This document shows, piece after piece, positions 3,849-24,434 of a DNA stretch of 24,434 bases (within the stretch, counting starts at the first letter, position 1; the number at the start of each line of letters is the position of its first letter). Source of the DNA: a virus; IMG/VR virus record IMGVR_UViG_3300009149_000265, positions 1-24,434 of that record; one strand, 5' to 3'. The translations under genes and the position numbers were made by a program. The notes beneath the pieces were generated by a model that saw only the letters and a program-made list of their open reading frames with translations, was not told the origin of the DNA and made no database searches.

Positions 3849-5612
3849 TTAGGAATTCGTGTCTATCGAGATATCTGTAATATCCACAGTATAAAGTTTA
3901 CCTATCTGATCTTCGTCTACAACAATGTCCCCATCCTGATCCTGTTGATATCTTACGTACAGTACTTCACCGCTGGACAAATCCGGTGTGATATCTATTC
4001 CAGTAACCCCTGTTTCGTAATCTATGTCGCCTGATAGCGTAAGACCGGACACCTCCGACGTGAAGCCTCCCGCCCCGTCGTCTACCCCTACTTGAACCAT
4101 GTCTACAAACACTCTAACAGATCCAGGAAGAACCGGTATGGCTTCCAAAGTCTCACCATATTCATAAAAAGAATCATATGCCAATTGTAGTTCCTTTCGA
4201 ATTTCCATAACTAAATGACAGTAAGATACCTTTGCCAAATTATCTATCAGAGCAACCATATCCGAATAACGTTTATCTGTACCTAAGCTAACAGTCGTTC
4301 CTAAAGTAAAAGCGCCCTCAAAAGCTTCTTCAACGTCTGCTTGCGTCTCCGACAAAGAACTGCCTCTTCTTACTTTAACGTCCAAGGTTGGAATTACGTA
4401 AAGAATCTCAGCATCAACAAAAGAATAGCGAACAGTCATCATTGACAAAGCATAAAGATAATCCGTAAGGGCAGTCTTAAAAGCAGTACTTGGCTCCTGC
4501 CACTCTTGAAGAAGCACGCACAACTTCAACCGATTAAACATATCGTAGTCAGGTGAAGTCTCCTCATTCTCTCCCCACACATTAGCATCAGCAACTCCTG
4601 CATAGTTCTCAATCAAAGTTATAAAGTCCGTTCTAGTTACCGCTCGATCTCCCGTAGCAAATACTCTAGGTGCTTCGTCTCTTATTTCTTCTATGTCCTC
4701 CGCGTCATCCCCACCAAGAAACAAATCAGTATCAGTTGCATCCGACGCATTAGTTACAGAAATACTTGTTATCGCTGCTGGCTCCTGATAAATTCCAGTC
4801 GACGGATTGATGCCCCCCGAATCGTAAATTACACTGTTTATCTGAACTATCTTGTCCGCCTCATATACGTTACCAGCTAATCCAGCAGACTTTATACACT
4901 TCACAACGATTTCCGAGCCTACTGAAGGTGCCATACCGAATACCCCATCGCCAAACGTTACTGATACTGTTTCATTCGTTTCGGTAGTTACTCGATAATG
5001 CTTCGAGGCGCTGCCAGAAGACAAAAACGTATCTACCTTCGTCCACTCAACAGTGTCAACAAAAACGCCCTTACCACTTCCGACAGTATCAAAATTCGTA
5101 TTCTCCACGGTAACTGTATCCAAAATAACAACTTGACTTGCTGTCCCGTCTCCTATTCTTTGAATAGCTACGTACTCTCCTTGAATACCCGTAACCTTTA
5201 CACTCGTAGCTCCAATTGGAATGATTCCAGGAGCAGACACCAAGTACTTCGTACCGTTTACTGTTTGACAAGACGTCCACTGTGTAATAAATATCTTAAA
5301 ATAATGAGCAGCCGTTATAGAAAAAGTCAAATCACCAGTTGCAGACGTTGGTCGCTTAGGAGAGTAGTTCAAAAGTTTAACAATGTTTACGACACTAGAC
5401 TTATTCTTTGCCGTTGCAATATACGACTCCTCCGCCCTTCTTTCTATATAGTACAAGACAAGATTGGCAACATAAGCAAGAAGCTCTATGAGCATTTGAC
5501 CTGTTGCCGACTGATACGTATCCTTCCAAACATCAGATTCCTTAAGCCTGTTCTGTAACTGAGTAACCAAATCATCAAAATTGTAATCAACATAATTTAG
5601 CTCATTGGACAT
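3849..5612 (-). CDS. Baseplate wedge protein, gpJ-like
   Basis: 587 residues, in the range of large baseplate J proteins. The N-terminal ~75 residues (DDLVTQLQNRLKES, MLIELLAYVANLVLYYIERR) are the conserved helical start of this family. The central mark is GGDDAEDIEEIRDEAPRVF at about 298-316, followed by RAVTRTDFITLIENYAGVADA, the usual 'R-A-V-T-x-x-D-(F/Y)' segment. The C-terminal part has extra beta structure. J proteins pair with gpI and a gp25-like protein to form the wedge core that triggers sheath contraction. The gene overlaps the gp25-like gene by 11 bases, with GGGAGG inside the upstream coding sequence. Order gp25-J-(small)-I-fibre matches P2 W-J-I-H with one insertion. Confidence 0.88.
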   Translation of the reverse strand: MSNELNYVDYNFDDLVTQLQNRLKESDVWKDTYQSATGQMLIELLAYVANLVLYYIERRAEESYIATAKNKSSVVNIVKLLNYSPKRPTSATGDLTFSITAAHYFKIFITQWTSCQTVNGTKYLVSAPGIIPIGATSVKVTGIQGEYVAIQRIGDGTASQVVILDTVTVENTNFDTVGSGKGVFVDTVEWTKVDTFLSSGSASKHYRVTTETNETVSVTFGDGVFGMAPSVGSEIVVKCIKSAGLAGNVYEADKIVQINSVIYDSGGINPSTGIYQEPAAITSISVTNASDATDTDLFLGGDDAEDIEEIRDEAPRVFATGDRAVTRTDFITLIENYAGVADANVWGENEETSPDYDMFNRLKLCVLLQEWQEPSTAFKTALTDYLYALSMMTVRYSFVDAEILYVIPTLDVKVRRGSSLSETQADVEEAFEGAFTLGTTVSLGTDKRYSDMVALIDNLAKVSYCHLVMEIRKELQLAYDSFYEYGETLEAIPVLPGSVRVFVDMVQVGVDDGAGGFTSEVSGLTLSGDIDYETGVTGIDITPDLSSGEVLYVRYQQDQDGDIVVDEDQIGKLYTVDITDISIDTNS

Positions 5613-15602: not shown

Positions 15603-15861
15603 TGCGACCTCTGTATTGGCGTTCCGCCTTTTTTAATACCATAGCGTCGAACAATAGTGTTCTAAACGCTTGCCATATTCGTAACTCAATTACCGCAGGT
15701 AAACCTACAAAATGTAGCTTCATGTATATGTCAAAGTATCTTTCTGGTTCTACAAGCGCTCGATCGCAACGTGTAACGTATTCTCGATAAATCTTTCGAC
15801 CAAGTAGTCGAGTCAATGCTACTTCATAGGTAGCCGCTATATGTTCACTTTGCTTTTGCAT
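15586..15861 (-). CDS. Hypothetical helical protein, 91 aa
   Basis: Predicted to be mostly helical: MQKQSEHIAATYEVALTRLL, then 'EPERYFDIYMKLHFVGLPAVIEL' and 'AFRTLLFDAMVLKKAERQYR'. Basic overall, with one cysteine and no membrane segment. It overlaps both neighbours by 17 bases; AGGAAG precedes the ATG from within the upstream gene. I do not recognise it. Its place between a lysine-rich protein and the probable tail terminator suggests a neck or head-tail assembly factor. Confidence 0.55.
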   Translation of the reverse strand: MQKQSEHIAATYEVALTRLLGRKIYREYVTRCDRALVEPERYFDIYMKLHFVGLPAVIELRIWQAFRTLLFDAMVLKKAERQYRGRNDNVS

Positions 15862-17530: not shown

Positions 17531-18472
17531 TTACCTCCCTTGCATTGTCCCCATTAAATTCTGTATCCTATCCACCTCTTCGTCATCTATCACTTTGTCT
17601 GCAAGCATATCTTCTAAGTCTCGTATCATCTTCATATAAGTATAGCGATCAAGAAACTTAAAAATTGCATTCTGATCTCCCCACTCTTTAGCTCTTTCCA
17701 CGTCGTGTAGCGCTTCTTCCGGACTAGAAGGCTGTGACTTTCTCTTTCGTATATCCAGCCAACCTTTCTTCATGGCTGCCAATTCTTCGCAATCATCTTC
17801 TATCTCCTGAAGCTTGTCCTTAAGTTTCGATAATAAAACTTGCTTTTGTTCGTCAGGCGCCTCCTCAATTGCCTTTTTTATTACCTCATAATCAATAGTA
17901 TCTCTTTGCAACTCACCGAACGCTAAATCCGCTTTCTGTGAATAATCTCGAACATCATCCGCTAAATGTTGATAGACTTCGTATGGATCAAAGCCAGCAA
18001 CCGCGGTTCCAGGACCTTTCACCCATCTACTTGTCTTTATGTCATATACAGCGTCTGACATCAAATCTTGGTACGGATTAAGCTGCAAGTAAACTTCTAT
18101 TGGATGTTTGCCGATGTAACCGTCGATTACATCTCTGTTATCCTTGAAGTAACGGAAGATAAGCGATTGCCATTCTTCCGGGGTATGATCTTTTGGAAGT
18201 CGGCTTACATCAGGAGTTATATGAATATCAATGTCTGCGTCGTCGCTGTACTGATTTGTTCCAATGCTTCCTACTAATCGCATCTCCTCTGCAGTATCCG
18301 TAAGAGAAAAATCAGACCACTGAGCTAACGTGTCTTTTATCTTACTCAGTACCTTAGGTTGCAAAGTGTAACCTTCCTCGTTGCCCTGCCAAATCTCTTG
18401 ATCCAGTCCGTCTCTTGGGTAATCTATACTGGATTCTACTATCCTCATTGTCCTATCAAGAACGTTGCGCAT
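17531..18472 (-). CDS. Nucleotidyltransferase-fold protein with possible capsid-targeting leader
   Basis: 313 residues. MRLVGSIGTNQYSDDADIDI holds the signature of the DNA polymerase beta-type nucleotidyltransferase fold: G68-S69, then D80-x-D82 as the metal-binding pair; E126 in HPIEVYLQL fits the third carboxylate. SDAVYDIKTSRWVKGP follows, as in other phage members. The C-terminal half is a charged helical region, with no polymerase or tRNA-binding domain seen. Substrate is unknown; family members transfer nucleotides to protein, RNA or small molecules. Residues 1-13 (MRNVLDRTMRIVE, then SS) form an I-x-E leader shared with neighbours. TAGGAG precedes the ATG. It lies between beta-rich unknown and holin-like genes. 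Confidence 0.75.
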   Translation of the reverse strand: MRNVLDRTMRIVESSIDYPRDGLDQEIWQGNEEGYTLQPKVLSKIKDTLAQWSDFSLTDTAEEMRLVGSIGTNQYSDDADIDIHITPDVSRLPKDHTPEEWQSLIFRYFKDNRDVIDGYIGKHPIEVYLQLNPYQDLMSDAVYDIKTSRWVKGPGTAVAGFDPYEVYQHLADDVRDYSQKADLAFGELQRDTIDYEVIKKAIEEAPDEQKQVLLSKLKDKLQEIEDDCEELAAMKKGWLDIRKRKSQPSSPEEALHDVERAKEWGDQNAIFKFLDRYTYMKMIRDLEDMLADKVIDDEEVDRIQNLMGTMQGR

Positions 18473-18479
18473 ACTTCTC

Positions 18480-18839
18480 CTACCTTGGAGTAATTAAAGA
18501 CACGTACAAAATTGCTTTTTGAATCTTTCCATCAGCGTCTATGTCCACCGCCAATTCGGTTGGAACAATGTTTGAGCCGTTTACATACTCTATGTCAACC
18601 ACTGTAAGGTCTACTATCAGCGTTTTCCAATTATCGTCAAGGGCGTAATTGATAGCGACTGACCCTACACCAAAAACGTCTATGCCTTTTATTCCCCAAG
18701 ACCGAAATTCGATGTCAAGATCGTAATCAACGACAACTTTGTCATCGAAATCCAAAGCGCCGTCGTAATCAAGAACAGTTAACGAAACTTCTACTTCAAC
18801 CTTATACCGATTACGGGTTTCGTTCAATAGCTTCTTCAT
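18480..18839 (-). CDS. Beta-rich acidic hypothetical protein, 119 aa
   Basis: After a short basic leader (MKKLLNE, then TRNRYKV) the rest is alternating hydrophobic and acidic residues, as in an all-beta domain: VEVEVSLTVLDYDGALDFDD, FRSWGIKGIDVFGVGSVAI, 'LIVDLTVVDIEYV', ending AILYVSLITPR. No cysteines, no membrane segment. AAGGTGG lies seven bases before the ATG, inside the preceding small gene, whose stop overlaps the start as ATGA. Not recognised. The leader fits the L-x-E pattern of its neighbours, which suggests a head-internal protein (inference). Confidence 0.6.
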   Translation of the reverse strand: MKKLLNETRNRYKVEVEVSLTVLDYDGALDFDDKVVVDYDLDIEFRSWGIKGIDVFGVGSVAINYALDDNWKTLIVDLTVVDIEYVNGSNIVPTELAVDIDADGKIQKAILYVSLITPR

Positions 18840-18988
18840 ATAAAATCCACCTTAGTTAAAGTCCAAATTTCTACCCAAGCATTCCATAGCCCCCTAAAGT
18901 AACCTTGAGATGAAATTACGTAAGTTATTGTCATAGCAAAAGGAGCAATTAACGTTAAACCTACACGTAAAGCAATTTGCTTTTTCAT
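18836..18988 (-). CDS. Small single-pass membrane peptide, 50 aa
   Basis: Fills what otherwise looks like a 148-base gap. It starts ATG at 18988 directly on the stop of the preceding gene (TAATG) and ends TGA at 18836-18838, overlapping the next start (ATGA). The product begins MKKQIALRVGLTLIAPFAMT and has one hydrophobic helix at about residues 5-25, then an aromatic segment (RGLWNAWVEIWTL) that may lie along the membrane. Only a weak binding site is visible, so translation is probably coupled. Overlaps at both ends support a real gene. Could be a holin partner, antiholin or other membrane factor; unknown. Confidence 0.55.
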   Translation of the reverse strand: MKKQIALRVGLTLIAPFAMTITYVISSQGYFRGLWNAWVEIWTLTKVDFI

Positions 18989-20328
18989 TAGCTGGCATCT
19001 CTAAACTGCATAAATCGCATTGCATATTTTACCGCGTCTCTTATTGTATCCGGAAGTTTAACTGCTTCCAACTCTGCGACAAACTTTTCTTGCTTCTCTG
19101 TCATCTTCTTCTGCTTCTTTAGATACTTAGCCACCGAAGCCTTCTCTGCTAGTACAAAAATACGCTCTAGACTCTCATCGGTTAACTTAGAGTCCTTACA
19201 GCTTTCTCTAAACTTCGTTATCCAAGCTTCCAATACCTTACGCTCAGCTATTTGATTTTCCTTCGCCATCTCTTTCTTTATAGAAGCGTACACATCTGGA
19301 TTTGCGTTGATAGCCGCTATCGCCATCTTCTTTATCTTTGGATCCTTGCTATGATATGCTGCTTTCATCTTTTCGACAGGAATTGTTTCTCCTTCTGGAA
19401 CCTTAAGAGCCTTATGTAGTTGTCCTTTAGCTCCCTTGAACGCTTTCTGCATCCATGCCCCATCTTTAGCTTCCTTTACAATTACCATCCACTTCTTTTC
19501 ATCATCCGGATCCGGAAGTACCTGACCTTGTTTCTTCGTAGCTAATGCTTTAGCTTCGATCTCATCTGCCATGCCTCGTGCCACTACAGTGAAGTCTTGT
19601 TCCTCGATCTTAGCCTCCGCCGCTTTTTTGTGGGCGCCTAATCCCCACTTGTCAAGTTCCTCCTCAGCTAGATTCAAGTCAGTGTATCTGTCATAGTATT
19701 TACCGTCCAGCGAAGAATAGAATATCCTATCATAACCCCGATGTCCTACCGGAAATACGATTTCCAAGTTATTGTTCTTTGCATACCGCTCAACGCTCTC
19801 GGCATCTACGTCCTCAGCATCTACGTCCTCAGTAGCTCTCTGCTTTAATGGAAGACTTGCTTTAATCGCATCCTGTACCAAATCAAGCTTACCCCCAGTA
19901 ACCATATCTGTTAAACCCTTCAGGCTATCCAGGCTCATAGCCGAAAGCTTTACAGCAAAGTCTTCATCGGACATTTGATTCCAAAACTCAGGAGATTCCT
20001 CAAGCGCCTTGCGCCGCTCCTCCAATTCACCTGCTACCTCCTCTGCAATTACTGCAATATCTTCTTCGGTAACAGTAAGTCCTAAGTCTTCCAGTTGTTC
20101 TGCAACGTAGTCTACAATGTCCTCAGCAACCGGAACATAACTAGGCTGAGTGTCGTTAAAGTAATCGTAAGCTTTACTAATAAGTTTCCAGTATTTACCT
20201 TTACCCTCAACTACACCAGTCTCTACATCGAGCTTACTTACCCTGTTCAACTTACTATCTGGAAGTTCGTTAGTGTCTATCGTTTCCTTTAAAAAGTTCA
20301 TTAAGCCCATCACCATCTTCTCGCTCAT
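18988..20328 (-). CDS. Large charged virion-type protein, 446 aa, with L-x-E leader
   Basis: Starts MSEKMVMGLMNFLKE, then TIDTNELPDSKLNR. Residues 50-150 are acidic and helical. A duplicated E-D-V-D-A unit lies near 165-176, before a small domain with GHRGYDRIFYSSLDGKYYD. Around residue 290-340 comes DGAWMQKAFKGAKGQLHKAL and PEGETIPVEKMKAAY, a short helical unit ('G-x-L-H-K-x-L-x-x-P-x-G-x-x-I-P') found in other phage structural and injected proteins as I recall. The C-terminal ~100 residues are basic helices. GGGGGT precedes the ATG. No enzyme motif seen. Leader and neighbours suggest an internal head protein. Confidence 0.65.
   Translation of the reverse strand: MSEKMVMGLMNFLKETIDTNELPDSKLNRVSKLDVETGVVEGKGKYWKLISKAYDYFNDTQPSYVPVAEDIVDYVAEQLEDLGLTVTEEDIAVIAEEVAGELEERRKALEESPEFWNQMSDEDFAVKLSAMSLDSLKGLTDMVTGGKLDLVQDAIKASLPLKQRATEDVDAEDVDAESVERYAKNNNLEIVFPVGHRGYDRIFYSSLDGKYYDRYTDLNLAEEELDKWGLGAHKKAAEAKIEEQDFTVVARGMADEIEAKALATKKQGQVLPDPDDEKKWMVIVKEAKDGAWMQKAFKGAKGQLHKALKVPEGETIPVEKMKAAYHSKDPKIKKMAIAAINANPDVYASIKKEMAKENQIAERKVLEAWITKFRESCKDSKLTDESLERIFVLAEKASVAKYLKKQKKMTEKQEKFVAELEAVKLPDTIRDAVKYAMRFMQFRDAS
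19802..19831 (-). repeat. Tandem 15-base direct repeat inside a coding sequence
   Basis: GCATCTACGTCCTCA occurs twice head to tail on the plus strand (19802-19816 and 19817-19831). It duplicates five codons in the 446-residue protein, giving E-D-V-D-A twice in an acidic linker. Probably a slippage duplication. Confidence 0.85.
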
Positions 20329-20329
20329 C

Positions 20330-20773
20330 TTAACCCCCTGTGTTTTCTGTATCCATATCTTGAAGAAGTGTTACTTTCTTTCCATCAGCGTCGGACCAAA
20401 ATCCTGCAGACTTACCATCCCAAGCTATAAGTCCGAGAACCTTATCCTGAACCACTCCACCTTTATCCCAAAAAGCTACAACTTTTCTATTCCCCTCTTT
20501 ATAAAGAGGTCTAACTTCTATTGGTAAGTCTGCAAAACGAATGTTAAGAAACTGTTGGACTGCCCCCGGAGCAGAATCGCTTCCACGTAAAACACTATCG
20601 ATTATCTCTAACGCTCTTTTGTTCTTTGGCATTATCTTTTTACCATTCTCTAAAGCCTGTTTAAAATACTTGTCCACCCCAGTCGATGGAAACTTATCCG
20701 TATACTCGCCCAAAGTTCTTAAAAGTTTCTTATACGTGTTCAGGTCTTTCGCCTCGATTAGTACTCTGTGCAT
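20330..20773 (-). CDS. Hypothetical soluble protein, 147 aa, with L-x-E leader
   Basis: Starts MHRVLIE, then AKDLNTYKKLLRTLGEYTDK. The first half is basic and helical; the second is mixed with RPLYKEGNRKVVAFWDKGGV, LGLIAWDGKSAGFWSDADGK and an acidic end (MDTENTGG). No cysteine or membrane segment. The open frame allows a TTG four codons upstream, but that codon overlaps the GGAGG site that sits five bases before ATG 20773, so the ATG is the start. Not recognised. The stop overlaps the next gene's ribosome binding site. The L-I-E-A leader resembles T4 internal protein leaders (F-I-A-E-A). Confidence 0.6.
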   Translation of the reverse strand: MHRVLIEAKDLNTYKKLLRTLGEYTDKFPSTGVDKYFKQALENGKKIMPKNKRALEIIDSVLRGSDSAPGAVQQFLNIRFADLPIEVRPLYKEGNRKVVAFWDKGGVVQDKVLGLIAWDGKSAGFWSDADGKKVTLLQDMDTENTGG

Positions 20774-20777
20774 CTTT

Positions 20778-20784
20778 GCCTCCA
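20778..20784 (-). promoter_or_regulatory. Ribosome binding site that fixes start 20773
   Basis: TGGAGGC, with GGAGG at 20779-20783, is five bases before ATG 20773 and overlaps the alternative TTG at 20785, which rules that start out. Confidence 0.75.
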
Positions 20785-20787
20785 ATT

Positions 20788-21654
20788 TTATTCAACTACA
20801 TCATCTATACTTGCTTTTAAGTTCTTAAAAAATCCCCTGTCGAACGTCTTGCCTACAGGATAAATTACATTCTTTGCAACTCTAACATCCTTATAGACAC
20901 CAATCTCATCTTGAACTTCAGTGTTCGTTAAGTATACCCGCTCAAAAGGCACAAAAGCCATAGTCACTCCGCCTTCGTATACCATGTCAACGCCACTGTA
21001 TTTACTATGGATTCTCGTTGCGACAAGAATCTCGTATTCGTCAAAGACATCAAAAGTGTTTAAGGGCCTCTCTTGGTCAATGGCAGAAATAATCATTTCG
21101 ATACTACCTCTGTCTTCCAAATAATGTCCTCTCGCCCTATTAACTGTACTCTCGATGCCTGCTTGGAGGTCTTTAGAGCTATCTAACCGGAACAGTGTTC
21201 CTTTCGCCAGCGAATAGTGTGCTACATTAAATAGCTGCCGCCATATTGTGGCATGTGCTCGTACCTCTGAGATCGGTGACTTATTCATTAAATTCGTAAG
21301 ACCGCGTTTTAATTTAGTATATAACTTATCCACCTTGTCATCTGAAGTTTCTAATAAAGTGTCAGATAAATCCACTACCATTGTATCCCTATTATATCTC
21401 TCGTCTGTTAAAACCCTTGCTTTAAAATCTGCCCAATACCTTACGGGAACCGTAACCTTCAACTCATTCTCAAGAGCTACTTCATACGAATCTTCATTCT
21501 CATGTACAGTAATCTTCCATTGCTTCTTTTTACCGGCAAGATTCTTTAATATTTGACTGACACTAGAAAATCCATTGGGCAAGTAAGCTATGTTATCACT
21601 ATACGTTGTTTCCTTTAGTATCTGCTGCACTCTATTTACTATATTTACGAACAT
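20788..21654 (-). CDS. Hypothetical protein, 288 aa, with L-x-E leader
   Basis: Starts MFVNIVNRVQQILKE, then TTYSDNIAYLPNGFSSVSQI. The N-terminal third is mixed alpha/beta with KKKQWKITVHENEDSYEVAL; the middle is helical (VDKLYTKLKRGLTNLMNK, EVRAHATIWRQLFNVAHYSL), followed by 'GTLFRLDSS'; the last third is beta-rich (DEYEILVATRI, TMAFVPFERVYLTN, KNVIYPVGKTF). No cysteine, no membrane segment. GGAG precedes the ATG by six bases, inside the end of the preceding gene (10-base overlap). I do not recognise a family. The ILKE-T leader nearly copies that of the 446-residue protein (FLKE-T). Confidence 0.6.
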   Translation of the reverse strand: MFVNIVNRVQQILKETTYSDNIAYLPNGFSSVSQILKNLAGKKKQWKITVHENEDSYEVALENELKVTVPVRYWADFKARVLTDERYNRDTMVVDLSDTLLETSDDKVDKLYTKLKRGLTNLMNKSPISEVRAHATIWRQLFNVAHYSLAKGTLFRLDSSKDLQAGIESTVNRARGHYLEDRGSIEMIISAIDQERPLNTFDVFDEYEILVATRIHSKYSGVDMVYEGGVTMAFVPFERVYLTNTEVQDEIGVYKDVRVAKNVIYPVGKTFDRGFFKNLKASIDDVVE

Positions 21655-24434
21655 ATGATACTCCGCATTAGTTCTTTACTTTCGTTTGAAAGCCATTCGT
21701 CCGGGGCCTCTTTAAACTCTGGTTCCTCCGCCGTTATTATAGACTTAGCAAGCAGTAGCCCGTTAGCCATACCATGCATATAAGGATCGTAATTCCAATT
21801 ACCATCAGCACATTGAACGTCTGTTACCGATTCTAAATCTAAAATTCTATCTTCTAAACTTTTCGGCATTACTGCAACAGCTTCTTTAATTGTTCTTTCA
21901 GAAGTGTCTGGCTTAAACTTCTTGCGTACAGATACCCTACTTAGATCATCTATGCCTATGTCCTTAGCATCCCGTGGTCCGTACCAAGCCTTGACTACCT
22001 CTCTGTTGCCCTGCTCGATAAATGCTATTGCATCTTTCTTGTTTTCGTAACCGACAATAGCTCGTCCATCTGCCCAATGAATATAGAAGCCATGACCATG
22101 TGCTGCAATGTCCGGATAGTCCGCACTCTCTAATTTAGAAATAAATTCTTTCTCCTTAGAGGTTTCCTTTCCTTCTTCTACATCTGTCTCAAATACCGCA
22201 AGTAGTTTGTCAATCAACGCGTCCTGCTCTTTCGAAAAATGCCAACGTACATCCTTCTGCTCATCATACCATTCCCTTGCGGTATTCGTTTTTAGCTCTT
22301 CTGACATTGCGACCCAGTCCGCTATCATCTCTGCAAGGCTCAAGGCATCCATTTTCGTAGCGTCTATTACTATATCTGATTTATCTCTATCGTCTTTACT
22401 TATGTTAGCCTGACTCTTATCTTCTAAGTGAAATTCCGGATGGTGAGCATTCGTAGTTATATGATGAAGCGTTGCTTTGTTAACGTTTGGATCTGCTTCA
22501 TTGTTGCCTACGAATTTTCTCCAACTCAATTCTATATAAGGTGTCCGTTCGGGCTCTTCGAATTTACTTGCATCATGGTTCTCAACCTGAGTCAGCAACG
22601 CCATCTCATCGAACTCTTTAAACTCGGGATTAGCTGTTGCTATCTTCTTTGCTGCCTTCTGAACCAACGCTATATGCTTTCTTGTTCTATCTTCAAAGTG
22701 TTTTTCTTTTTCTTCAGGAGTAGCTTCTTGCTCTTTGCCTTCCGTTGCTTTCTTTACATTATCCTCTGGAGCTTCTTTCTTGTCTGTCTCTTCCTCAGAC
22801 TTCCCTCGTCCTTTCTTAAGAGTTGTCGCTGCTTTCTTTAGCATGCCAAATTCTTTCTTCGTCTTTTCAACTTCATCTGCAATGGCGTTCTTGTAAGTGT
22901 TCTTTAGATACCGCGCAAACGTTGTAGCATAAAATGGAAATGTATCCATCACGAGTTGCGTGTGTTTACAAAAGGCACCATACTGTTTTGGGTTCCGAAC
23001 TTTTGGTGGGCGCATCTCCGGCTTGGTGTACTTCGCTTGCTTCTGTGTTCTTATGTACTGCCCACCATAGTATAAGTCCGCCGGACAGTTGTGTACTATA
23101 ACCCCCGCCTCTAAAAGATAATTTTCGTAGCCCTCTACTGAAAGATCGTAAACCTTTTCGGCTACTTTGTAAATAACCATTCGAACTGCCTTCACCTTAT
23201 GATTGTATAAAGCTTTTTCTTTAGAGTATGACTGCACTTGCTCCACTAGTTCTTTAGAAATTCTATGATGCGATCTATTTCCAGTAGCCTTCTCGTAAGC
23301 AAGTAAGGCTTCTTCTAAACTAGGAAACACAGTTAAAAGTCTTAAGCCATTCTTAGCACGATAATGCTCAAAGTTTTGTTCGGTAATCTCTTTGCCCTCA
23401 TTACGTAATCGAGTAAAAATAGTAAATACCTTTCCTATCTTAGCTCTTACCGGGTAACCGTCGTTACCCTGATCTTTAGTTTTCGCTAAGGTACTCCCAT
23501 GTGCTACCATGTCCCTACGTCTTTGTGAATTCTTTTTCCACCACTTGCGCTTTCTAGTAGCTGAAGAAATGCAAGACTCTTTAGACTGGGATCCTTGCAT
23601 TCTCGCCACTATAAGATCTCTCTTTGTTGCCCACATATCCAAATTGTTCTTACGTATTATCTTATGTCCCTCGGCACTTCGCGTCCATGCAATAATAATC
23701 TCATTTGCTTTCTTCCAAATATCGGGATGCTTCTTTTGACAAGCTAAACCACCCAACCTACTTTTGGCTCTGCTCCACTCAGGATTATCTTTCGCCCGCT
23801 GCTTTGTCGCTGCTACACAATTAGTTCTGTCGACATCCTTAGCATGATAATACCAATGTTGTAAGATACCTTGCCAATCCAAATTGCTTGGAACATTATT
23901 TAAGCCGTTAAAATCTTTATGATGAACGGCAAGTCCTTTCTCAAAACCAGCCTCTACTAACTCTTTTAGCAACTCAACCATCTTTGCCTCATACACCTTC
24001 CCCGCTACCACCCTATGTACCATCTTCCAAGAATACTTCTTTTTCGAGTTCTGCTTAACCTGCAAATACTTTTGACTATACCTACTGTTTGGATTTTGTA
24101 CTCTAAAGTACAAAGGCATCAAGCTATCGTCGATCTGTAAATCTTTCGCCTCTCGATAACTACCATCTCTTAACATAAACTTATGCTCTGGAGTGCACCG
24201 TACTGTCTTACCGCTGTCTAAAGTTACTTCAGTAAGCTGACTAAGAGCTCCAGTAACTCCTTTACAAGTAGCTCTACCTGGAACAAAATCTCCTTTAGTA
24301 TCTACTGAGTAAACCCAAAACTCTTTATCAGTGCCATACTCTTCATAAATTTCTTTAATAGTTAAGGTTCTTCCGTCAAGTAACGGTATCTTAGTGTCTC
24401 CTGTCACGCAACTGCAATACGTCTCCACGTCTAC
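21645..24434 (-). CDS. SWIM zinc finger + DUF5662-like protein interrupted by an intein; 5' end outside window
   Basis: Open to the right edge; the GTG at 24428 is an internal valine. Numbering from it, residues 5-6 (C-S) are N-extein, 7-447 the intein, and the C-extein resumes CPADLYYGGQYIRTQ. Joined, C5-S-C448 and C487-K-H489 form C-x-C ... C-x-H, a SWIM zinc finger, with 'RPPKVRNPKQYGAFCKH' before the last pair. Residues ~510-575 are a charged linker. Residues 585-667 contain VENHDASKF, EPERTPYIELSW and HHITTNAHHPEF, matching the DUF5662 HD-like pattern. The tail has DGNWNYDPYMHGMANG, recurrent in large phages as I recall. Spliced visible length is about 488 residues. Possible roles: nucleic-acid-binding virion protein or hydrolase. 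Confidence 0.8.
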   Translation of the reverse strand, partial: VDVETYCSCVTGDTKIPLLDGRTLTIKEIYEEYGTDKEFWVYSVDTKGDFVPGRATCKGVTGALSQLTEVTLDSGKTVRCTPEHKFMLRDGSYREAKDLQIDDSLMPLYFRVQNPNSRYSQKYLQVKQNSKKKYSWKMVHRVVAGKVYEAKMVELLKELVEAGFEKGLAVHHKDFNGLNNVPSNLDWQGILQHWYYHAKDVDRTNCVAATKQRAKDNPEWSRAKSRLGGLACQKKHPDIWKKANEIIIAWTRSAEGHKIIRKNNLDMWATKRDLIVARMQGSQSKESCISSATRKRKWWKKNSQRRRDMVAHGSTLAKTKDQGNDGYPVRAKIGKVFTIFTRLRNEGKEITEQNFEHYRAKNGLRLLTVFPSLEEALLAYEKATGNRSHHRISKELVEQVQSYSKEKALYNHKVKAVRMVIYKVAEKVYDLSVEGYENYLLEAGVIVHNCPADLYYGGQYIRTQKQAKYTKPEMRPPKVRNPKQYGAFCKHTQLVMDTFPFYATTFARYLKNTYKNAIADEVEKTKKEFGMLKKAATTLKKGRGKSEEETDKKEAPEDNVKKATEGKEQEATPEEKEKHFEDRTRKHIALVQKAAKKIATANPEFKEFDEMALLTQVENHDASKFEEPERTPYIELSWRKFVGNNEADPNVNKATLHHITTNAHHPEFHLEDKSQANISKDDRDKSDIVIDATKMDALSLAEMIADWVAMSEELKTNTAREWYDEQKDVRWHFSKEQDALIDKLLAVFETDVEEGKETSKEKEFISKLESADYPDIAAHGHGFYIHWADGRAIVGYENKKDAIAFIEQGNREVVKAWYGPRDAKDIGIDDLSRVSVRKKFKPDTSERTIKEAVAVMPKSLEDRILDLESVTDVQCADGNWNYDPYMHGMANGLLLAKSIITAEEPEFKEAPDEWLSNESKELMRSIICS
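23088..24410 (-). mobile_element. Intein with HNH homing endonuclease, 441 aa
   Basis: Block A is CVTGDTKIPLLDGRTLTIKE with catalytic Cys1. Block B is VRCTPEHKFMLRDG, with T-x-x-H at host residues 79-82. The C-terminal blocks are VYDLSVEGYENYLLEAGVIV followed by H-N and then Cys+1 of the extein, so penultimate His and terminal Asn are intact. Between them is an HNH endonuclease: GLAVHHKDFNGLNN, SNLDW, then H191/H195 (H169-H170, N177-N178). A basic helical region follows, probably for DNA recognition. All splicing and nuclease signature residues are present, so it should be active. The insert is in frame and its removal restores the zinc finger. Confidence 0.93.

Follow-up and report, generated by a model that had tools for sequence, protein, structure and literature searches.

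Short [LI]-x-E leaders in a gene run of an uncultured T4-related virus: probable capsid-targeting propeptides

Five soluble proteins encoded in one run of genes of the IMG/VR virus fragment IMGVR_UViG_3300009149_000265 start with short leaders, and we consider it highly likely, from sequence comparison, that these are T4-type capsid-targeting propeptides on head-internal proteins, which would be cut and some of which would probably be ejected. The fragment of 24,434 bases (the window, in what follows) is a piece of the genome of an uncultured, distant T4-type myovirus. All its genes lie on the minus strand, and their order takes in T4-type baseplate genes (gp6, gp25, gp53-like), tube, sheath, a gp15-like gene, the leader run and a partial gene at the contig end. 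A DNA-level search found no match to the window among phage records. The features of the run are as follows (the slash marks a predicted or aligned cut site throughout).

21645..24428, minus strand: partial gene, truncated at the contig end, for a CxC...CKH protein with an intein and a C-terminal DUF5662; N-terminus missing
21610..21654, minus strand: leader MFVNIVNRVQQILKE from gene 20788-21654 (288-aa product); cleavage predicted ahead of TTYSDN (next residue T)
20753..20773, minus strand: leader MHRVLIE from gene 20330-20773 (147-aa product); cleavage predicted ahead of AKDLNT (MHRVLIE/A)
20284..20328, minus strand: leader MSEKMVMGLMNFLKE from gene 18988-20328 (446-aa product); cleavage predicted ahead of TIDTNE (next residue T)
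18836..18988, minus strand: membrane peptide, 50 aa, without leader motif
18819..18839, minus strand: leader MKKLLNE from gene 18480-18839 (119-aa product); cleavage predicted ahead of TRNRYK (MKKLLNE/T)
18434..18472, minus strand: leader MRNVLDRTMRIVE from gene 17531-18472 (313-aa product, nucleotidyltransferase-like); cleavage predicted ahead of SSIDYP
17531..18433, minus strand: predicted mature nucleotidyltransferase, with G68 S69, D80-x-D82, E126 and a helical C-terminal part

The leader run and its T4 counterparts

Exactly as the initial annotation had it, the five leaders on the minus strand end in [LI]-x-E followed by T, S or A, and the product of 18836-18988 is the single protein of the run without the motif. 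The gene of the 147-aa protein has a weaker alternative start, an in-frame TTG 12 bases upstream. In T4, substrates are cut after L/I-X-E, the propeptides have 7-65 residues and the leaders act as capsid targeting sequences (CTS) (PMC9026906); the window leaders (n = 5), with 7-15 residues, fit this rule. The T4 proteins IPI, IPII, IPIII and Alt, which are cut by gp21, likewise have a short leader with L/I-X-E before a small residue. We suggest that during head assembly each short leader would carry its protein into the prohead scaffold core, where an S77 (gp21-family) protease, presumably encoded in the part of the genome that the fragment does not cover, would cut after [LI]-x-E. The leader would be lost, the mature protein, now with T, S or A as its first residue, would remain in the DNA-filled head, and at least some of these proteins, such as the nucleotidyltransferase, would probably enter the host with the DNA. 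For the window phage, we infer its own protease, the cleavage, the presence in the virion and the ejection.

A scan of T4 itself placed [LI].E within the first 34 residues of 9/9 listed substrates and of 2/8 other head and tail proteins. The uncut T4 sheath matches the motif with LKE/T at 12, and the T4 DNA end protector gp2 (L165:16061-16885) begins with the same motif, MAIFQIINE/S. As the scan also picks these two proteins, a hit in a single protein is no proof of anything.

Occurrence of the boundary in the window and in relatives

Counted with E at positions 4-22 and T, S, A or G as the next residue, the motif is present in five of the six run genes and in one of the remaining 24 (Fisher P = 2.4e-4; post hoc); the tally over genes that the initial annotation had proposed thus finds it not equally common. 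Internal 19-position windows of the relatives' proteins give a background rate of 5.8%, against which 5/6 corresponds to P = 4e-6, again post hoc. Since the run region was picked after the motif had been noticed, we rely on the relatives. A sheath-profile search yielded 57 loci in IMG/VR and one in GTDB genomes, and thirteen larger relative contigs were read whole or almost whole. Gene starts in the relatives carry some error because a simple purpose-made gene caller was used; odd starts in two of them (G019 and G004) were corrected from the upstream sequence. One relative, JAHQJS010000001.1 (L097, L134-L142), is a 179-kb contig of the phage clade with eleven tRNA genes that has been binned with the Asgard archaeon Borrarchaeum; this is likely a mis-binning, and an archaeal host is possible.

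That a short motif clustered by chance and was spotted post hoc is exceedingly improbable in our judgement. [LI].E[TSAG] is expected in about 6% of 19-position windows and the region was selected on sight of the motif, but conservation in orthologs already contradicts a chance run. With E at 4-28 and the window sequences left out of the ortholog counts, the motif occurs in 27 of 58 orthologs from four run families, while 16 families of neck, tail and baseplate proteins have it in 11 of 458 members (Fisher P = 2e-20, which is only nominal because related sequences are included in the counts). By position in the relatives, [LI].E[TSAG] is found in 51/195 genes of the head module (26%), 2/206 among the 25 genes from the sheath on (1%) and 27/433 others; control motifs are mostly flat, with [LI]..E and [LI]E. 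mildly up. This enrichment, confined to the head side, is what T4-type propeptides would lead one to expect.

Many relatives share a common gene order: the CxC...CKH gene, the 288-aa and 147-aa genes, (446-aa, 119-aa), the nucleotidyltransferase, an MSRM protein, gp15 and sheath. Among orthologs of the soluble run genes, the boundary, [LIV]-x-E followed by A, S or T, is kept while the length (6-25 aa) and sequence of the leader vary. Of 52 aligned leader sites, 49 have E at P1, 43 have L or I at P3 and 50 continue with A, S or T; the sites were listed by hand, excluding fused members and any ortholog whose boundary was not clear. In the 147-aa family (KILE/AKDL, KIRE/AKDV, DLLE/AKDL, RILE/SRDT), [LIV]xE/[AS] is found in 11/11 leader-bearing orthologs, and the protein has no leader in G002 and L047. 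Comparable sites are seen in the 288-aa family (RLLE/ATTM, IIRE/TTTS, DIIE/ATTS), in partly homologous genes at the 446-aa position (LRKIQE/ST, LAKMQE/AT, LGKIRE/ST) and in the nucleotidyltransferase family (ILKE/SLID, RLLE/SIID, YIQE/STVD), two or three unfused members of which have D or C in place of E. Eight orthologs of the upstream CxC...CKH gene (21645-24428) begin with a leader, for example MIDLIDKLVE/AT (sites KLVE/AT, KLIE/AT, ELIE/AT).

Domain fusions suggest that the leader usually stays at the N-terminus of the longer protein. Nucleotidyltransferases with an extra N-terminal stretch have their leader at the beginning of the longer protein (L055: MRRLLEKILKISE/A, L084: MRDLLNNLLKLDE/A, G006: MKKLIEHLIKIQE/T). 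This placement is consistent with a leader that by itself could direct an attached protein into the head. Six nucleotidyltransferase fusions also have E before the internal S-x-I-D, with P3 mostly V or T, and so part of the conservation of E in this family may be structural. DUF5662 lies within the upstream gene in the window and is a separate gene with its own leader in two relatives (MRELLTRLFE/A in G001, MFNKLFGILNE/V in G006). At least nine LRR-like repeat-protein paralogs in G002 start with MKKLLE/SLLEQ or a near variant; this array (L153, L152, about 23-48 kb) flanks the protease and capsid genes on both sides.

Elsewhere in the window, the motif had been reported near the start of only three genes, 15845, 17252 and 5602. 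It is present in all three (LIE/V, LGE/L and IQE/D), but with a next residue outside the T/S/A rule, and looser cases with E at 20-25 had been missed at 3849 (LKE/S), 14483 (LDE/A) and 12317 (LWE/V). The gene at 15845, advanced as a sixth candidate on the strength of MKKLIE/V, is rejected as a leader gene, as only 1/8 orthologs has a leader; 17252, for which no ortholog was found, and 5602, with the leader kept in 2/16 orthologs, are rejected as well. Many orthologs of 14483 have [LI].E thereabouts (at ~20 in the window), where it looks like a portion of a conserved helix.

Prohead protease, capsid protein and competing readings

Neither an S77 protease nor a capsid gene is present within the 24-kb window fragment; the prohead protease gene, which the initial annotation had suggested looking for, is found in the relatives. 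There, just upstream, an S77 (T4 gp21-family) protease passes the Pfam cut-off in eight records; alignment recognises it in ten, with matches to the gp23-type capsid gene adjoining it. Aligned to T4 gp21, 10/10 of these proteases keep His85 and Ser140, which we take to be the catalytic residues of T4 gp21. An LxE column near the protease N-terminus is also kept, and corresponds to LIE-9 of T4 gp21, named in a review as matching gp21's own cleavage logo (PMC9026906). The gp23-type capsid protein of the relatives has [LMIV]-F-E/[AT] in the same column as LLRE/S of T4 gp24, and its sites (n = 10) are all FE followed by A, T or N. The S77 protease of this clade is the N-terminal portion of a long frame (533-1545 aa) that immediately precedes the capsid gene (L126:7230-9962, L137:10762-14469, L152:7249-11886). 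The C-terminal extension may be a fused scaffold; a count found no excess of internal [LI].E in it, which would be a sign of one. A group I intron with an Rfam score above the cut-off (L131:9067-9289) lies inside the capsid gene of G003, which is split in two; the capsid gene of G008 is likewise split.

The proposal that these are T4-type leaders cut by a prohead protease gains support from predictions that held in the relatives: a boundary kept without conservation of the leader sequence, the His and Ser of the protease, the capsid site, a motif that is enriched among head-module genes and almost missing from tail genes, and the leader at the N-terminus in most fusions. The leaders might instead stay uncut and serve only as N-terminal helices for docking, either onto the scaffold or between the proteins themselves. 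L, I and charged residues abound in them, and the models show them as short helices; in T4, targeting is separable from cutting, since D at position 10 stops cutting and not targeting (PMC9026906), and some of the orthologs have D at that place. However, the helix varies far more than E at P1 and the small A, S or T next to it, as a protease site predicts, and the capsid protein has the same site. We therefore regard uncut helices as improbable.

A more serious contender accepts the propeptides but holds that most of the proteins are structural or core head components (lining, vertex, DNA-organising) that are not injected. Synteny of the 288-aa, 147-aa and nucleotidyltransferase genes extends to almost every relative, whereas T4 internal proteins are strain-variable, and the predicted mature start of the 288-aa protein, TTYSDNIAYLP, resembles TTYQDNISFLG of the capsid protein. 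Being conserved and syntenic, some run families may indeed be structural head proteins and not take-over effectors. The catalytic residues of the nucleotidyltransferase, the transglycosylase fusions in relatives and the LRR-like paralog array in G002 suit cargo better than shell, and the AlphaFold model of the 288-aa protein (low confidence at residues 2-18) has no capsid-fold match in the PDB. On balance, we hold the structural role for most of the proteins to be somewhat less probable than its contrary. Delivery of the propeptide-bearing proteins to the host, as the initial annotation envisaged, is plausible.

Candidate cargo and comparison with known systems

The 313-aa protein is predicted to be a nucleotidyltransferase and one of the head-internal proteins. 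Across 20 sequences, G68, S69, D80 and D82 are invariant and E126 is nearly so; GS, D-x-D and a third acidic residue are those expected of the Pol-beta/MNT group. The protein has weak NTP_transf_2 and MNT-type matches. Its AlphaFold model has pLDDT < 50 at residues 1-16, a core folded from about 21 and pLDDT of about 90 over 21-150; MNT chains are the top hits among solved structures (probability 0.94-0.95), with a non-significant E = 0.05-0.1. It shares the GS...D-x-D signature, and in its predicted model probably the core fold, with MNT-type minimal nucleotidyltransferases, but the sequence and structure similarity is weak; the protein is phage-borne, has a leader and extends into a long, helical C-terminal part. 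Unlike MNT, some of the relatives' versions are fused to SLT transglycosylase domains (L059, G008, L051), the nucleotidyltransferase lying behind the transglycosylase in L145:8217-10667 (G008) and L059:995-3262. The G008 fusion has a weak 2H, 2'-5' ligase/Acb1-like domain in front, below the cut-off. A nucleotidyltransferase inside the head would make sense if it were ejected. Matches and models gave no assignable function for the remaining run proteins; the 288-aa protein was also considered as a hidden capsid-fold protein and rejected, its model having no fold match of any kind in the PDB.

As in T4, there are several unrelated leader-bearing proteins per phage and a gp21-family protease (here in relatives). 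In contrast to T4, the mature window proteins resemble known families only in the nucleotidyltransferase fold and DUF5662 (no IPI-IPIII or Alt family was matched in Pfam or PHROGs), the run genes lie in the head-tail operon and are themselves conserved across the clade while T4 ip genes are scattered, and processing is predicted here from the sequence. In the giant phages SPN3US and phiKZ, a gp21-like protease removes the propeptides of ejection proteins after x-x-E, and near-identical leaders on diverged paralogs (gp53/gp54) recall the G002 array. SPN3US propeptides are mostly >100 residues with A or S at P3 (PMC5694885), compared to 6-25 residues and L or I here.

It is very probable that the leader set is real. 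Its protein families are new and absent from sequenced isolates (three of the uncharacterised ones had no match among 50,697 phage records), while the mechanism, T4-type targeting and processing, is already known; among the papers searched, none joined 'capsid targeting sequence' with metagenomes. The leaders offer a sequence rule for spotting proteins that are packaged in the head, and possibly injected, by uncultured T4-related phages, and name candidates among uncharacterised families. One of these is a predicted active nucleotidyltransferase, which could act on the host as infection begins. Tentatively, the leader may be an open plug-in code for head cargo in this clade, by which a soluble domain that gains a leader is packaged. 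If so, the cargo would include an active nucleotidyltransferase, DUF5662, transglycosylase fusions (one with the weak Acb1-like, anti-CBASS match) and expanding LRR-like arrays, and host-modifying and counter-defence proteins would arrive with the DNA.

The upstream gene (21645-24428) contains an intein with an HNH-like insert (23091-24410, minus strand) beside the CxC of its CxC...CKH motif, which looks like a SWIM zinc finger; L073 and L088 match this gene through the intein too. Its top match, L002, was rejected as a relative: it is another phage, with only DUF5662 in common. In that unrelated phage, the peptide (M)RKTANQIADEALxK is repeated at or near the ends of several proteins (L002:7712-11745), and is possibly a different sort of shared tag.
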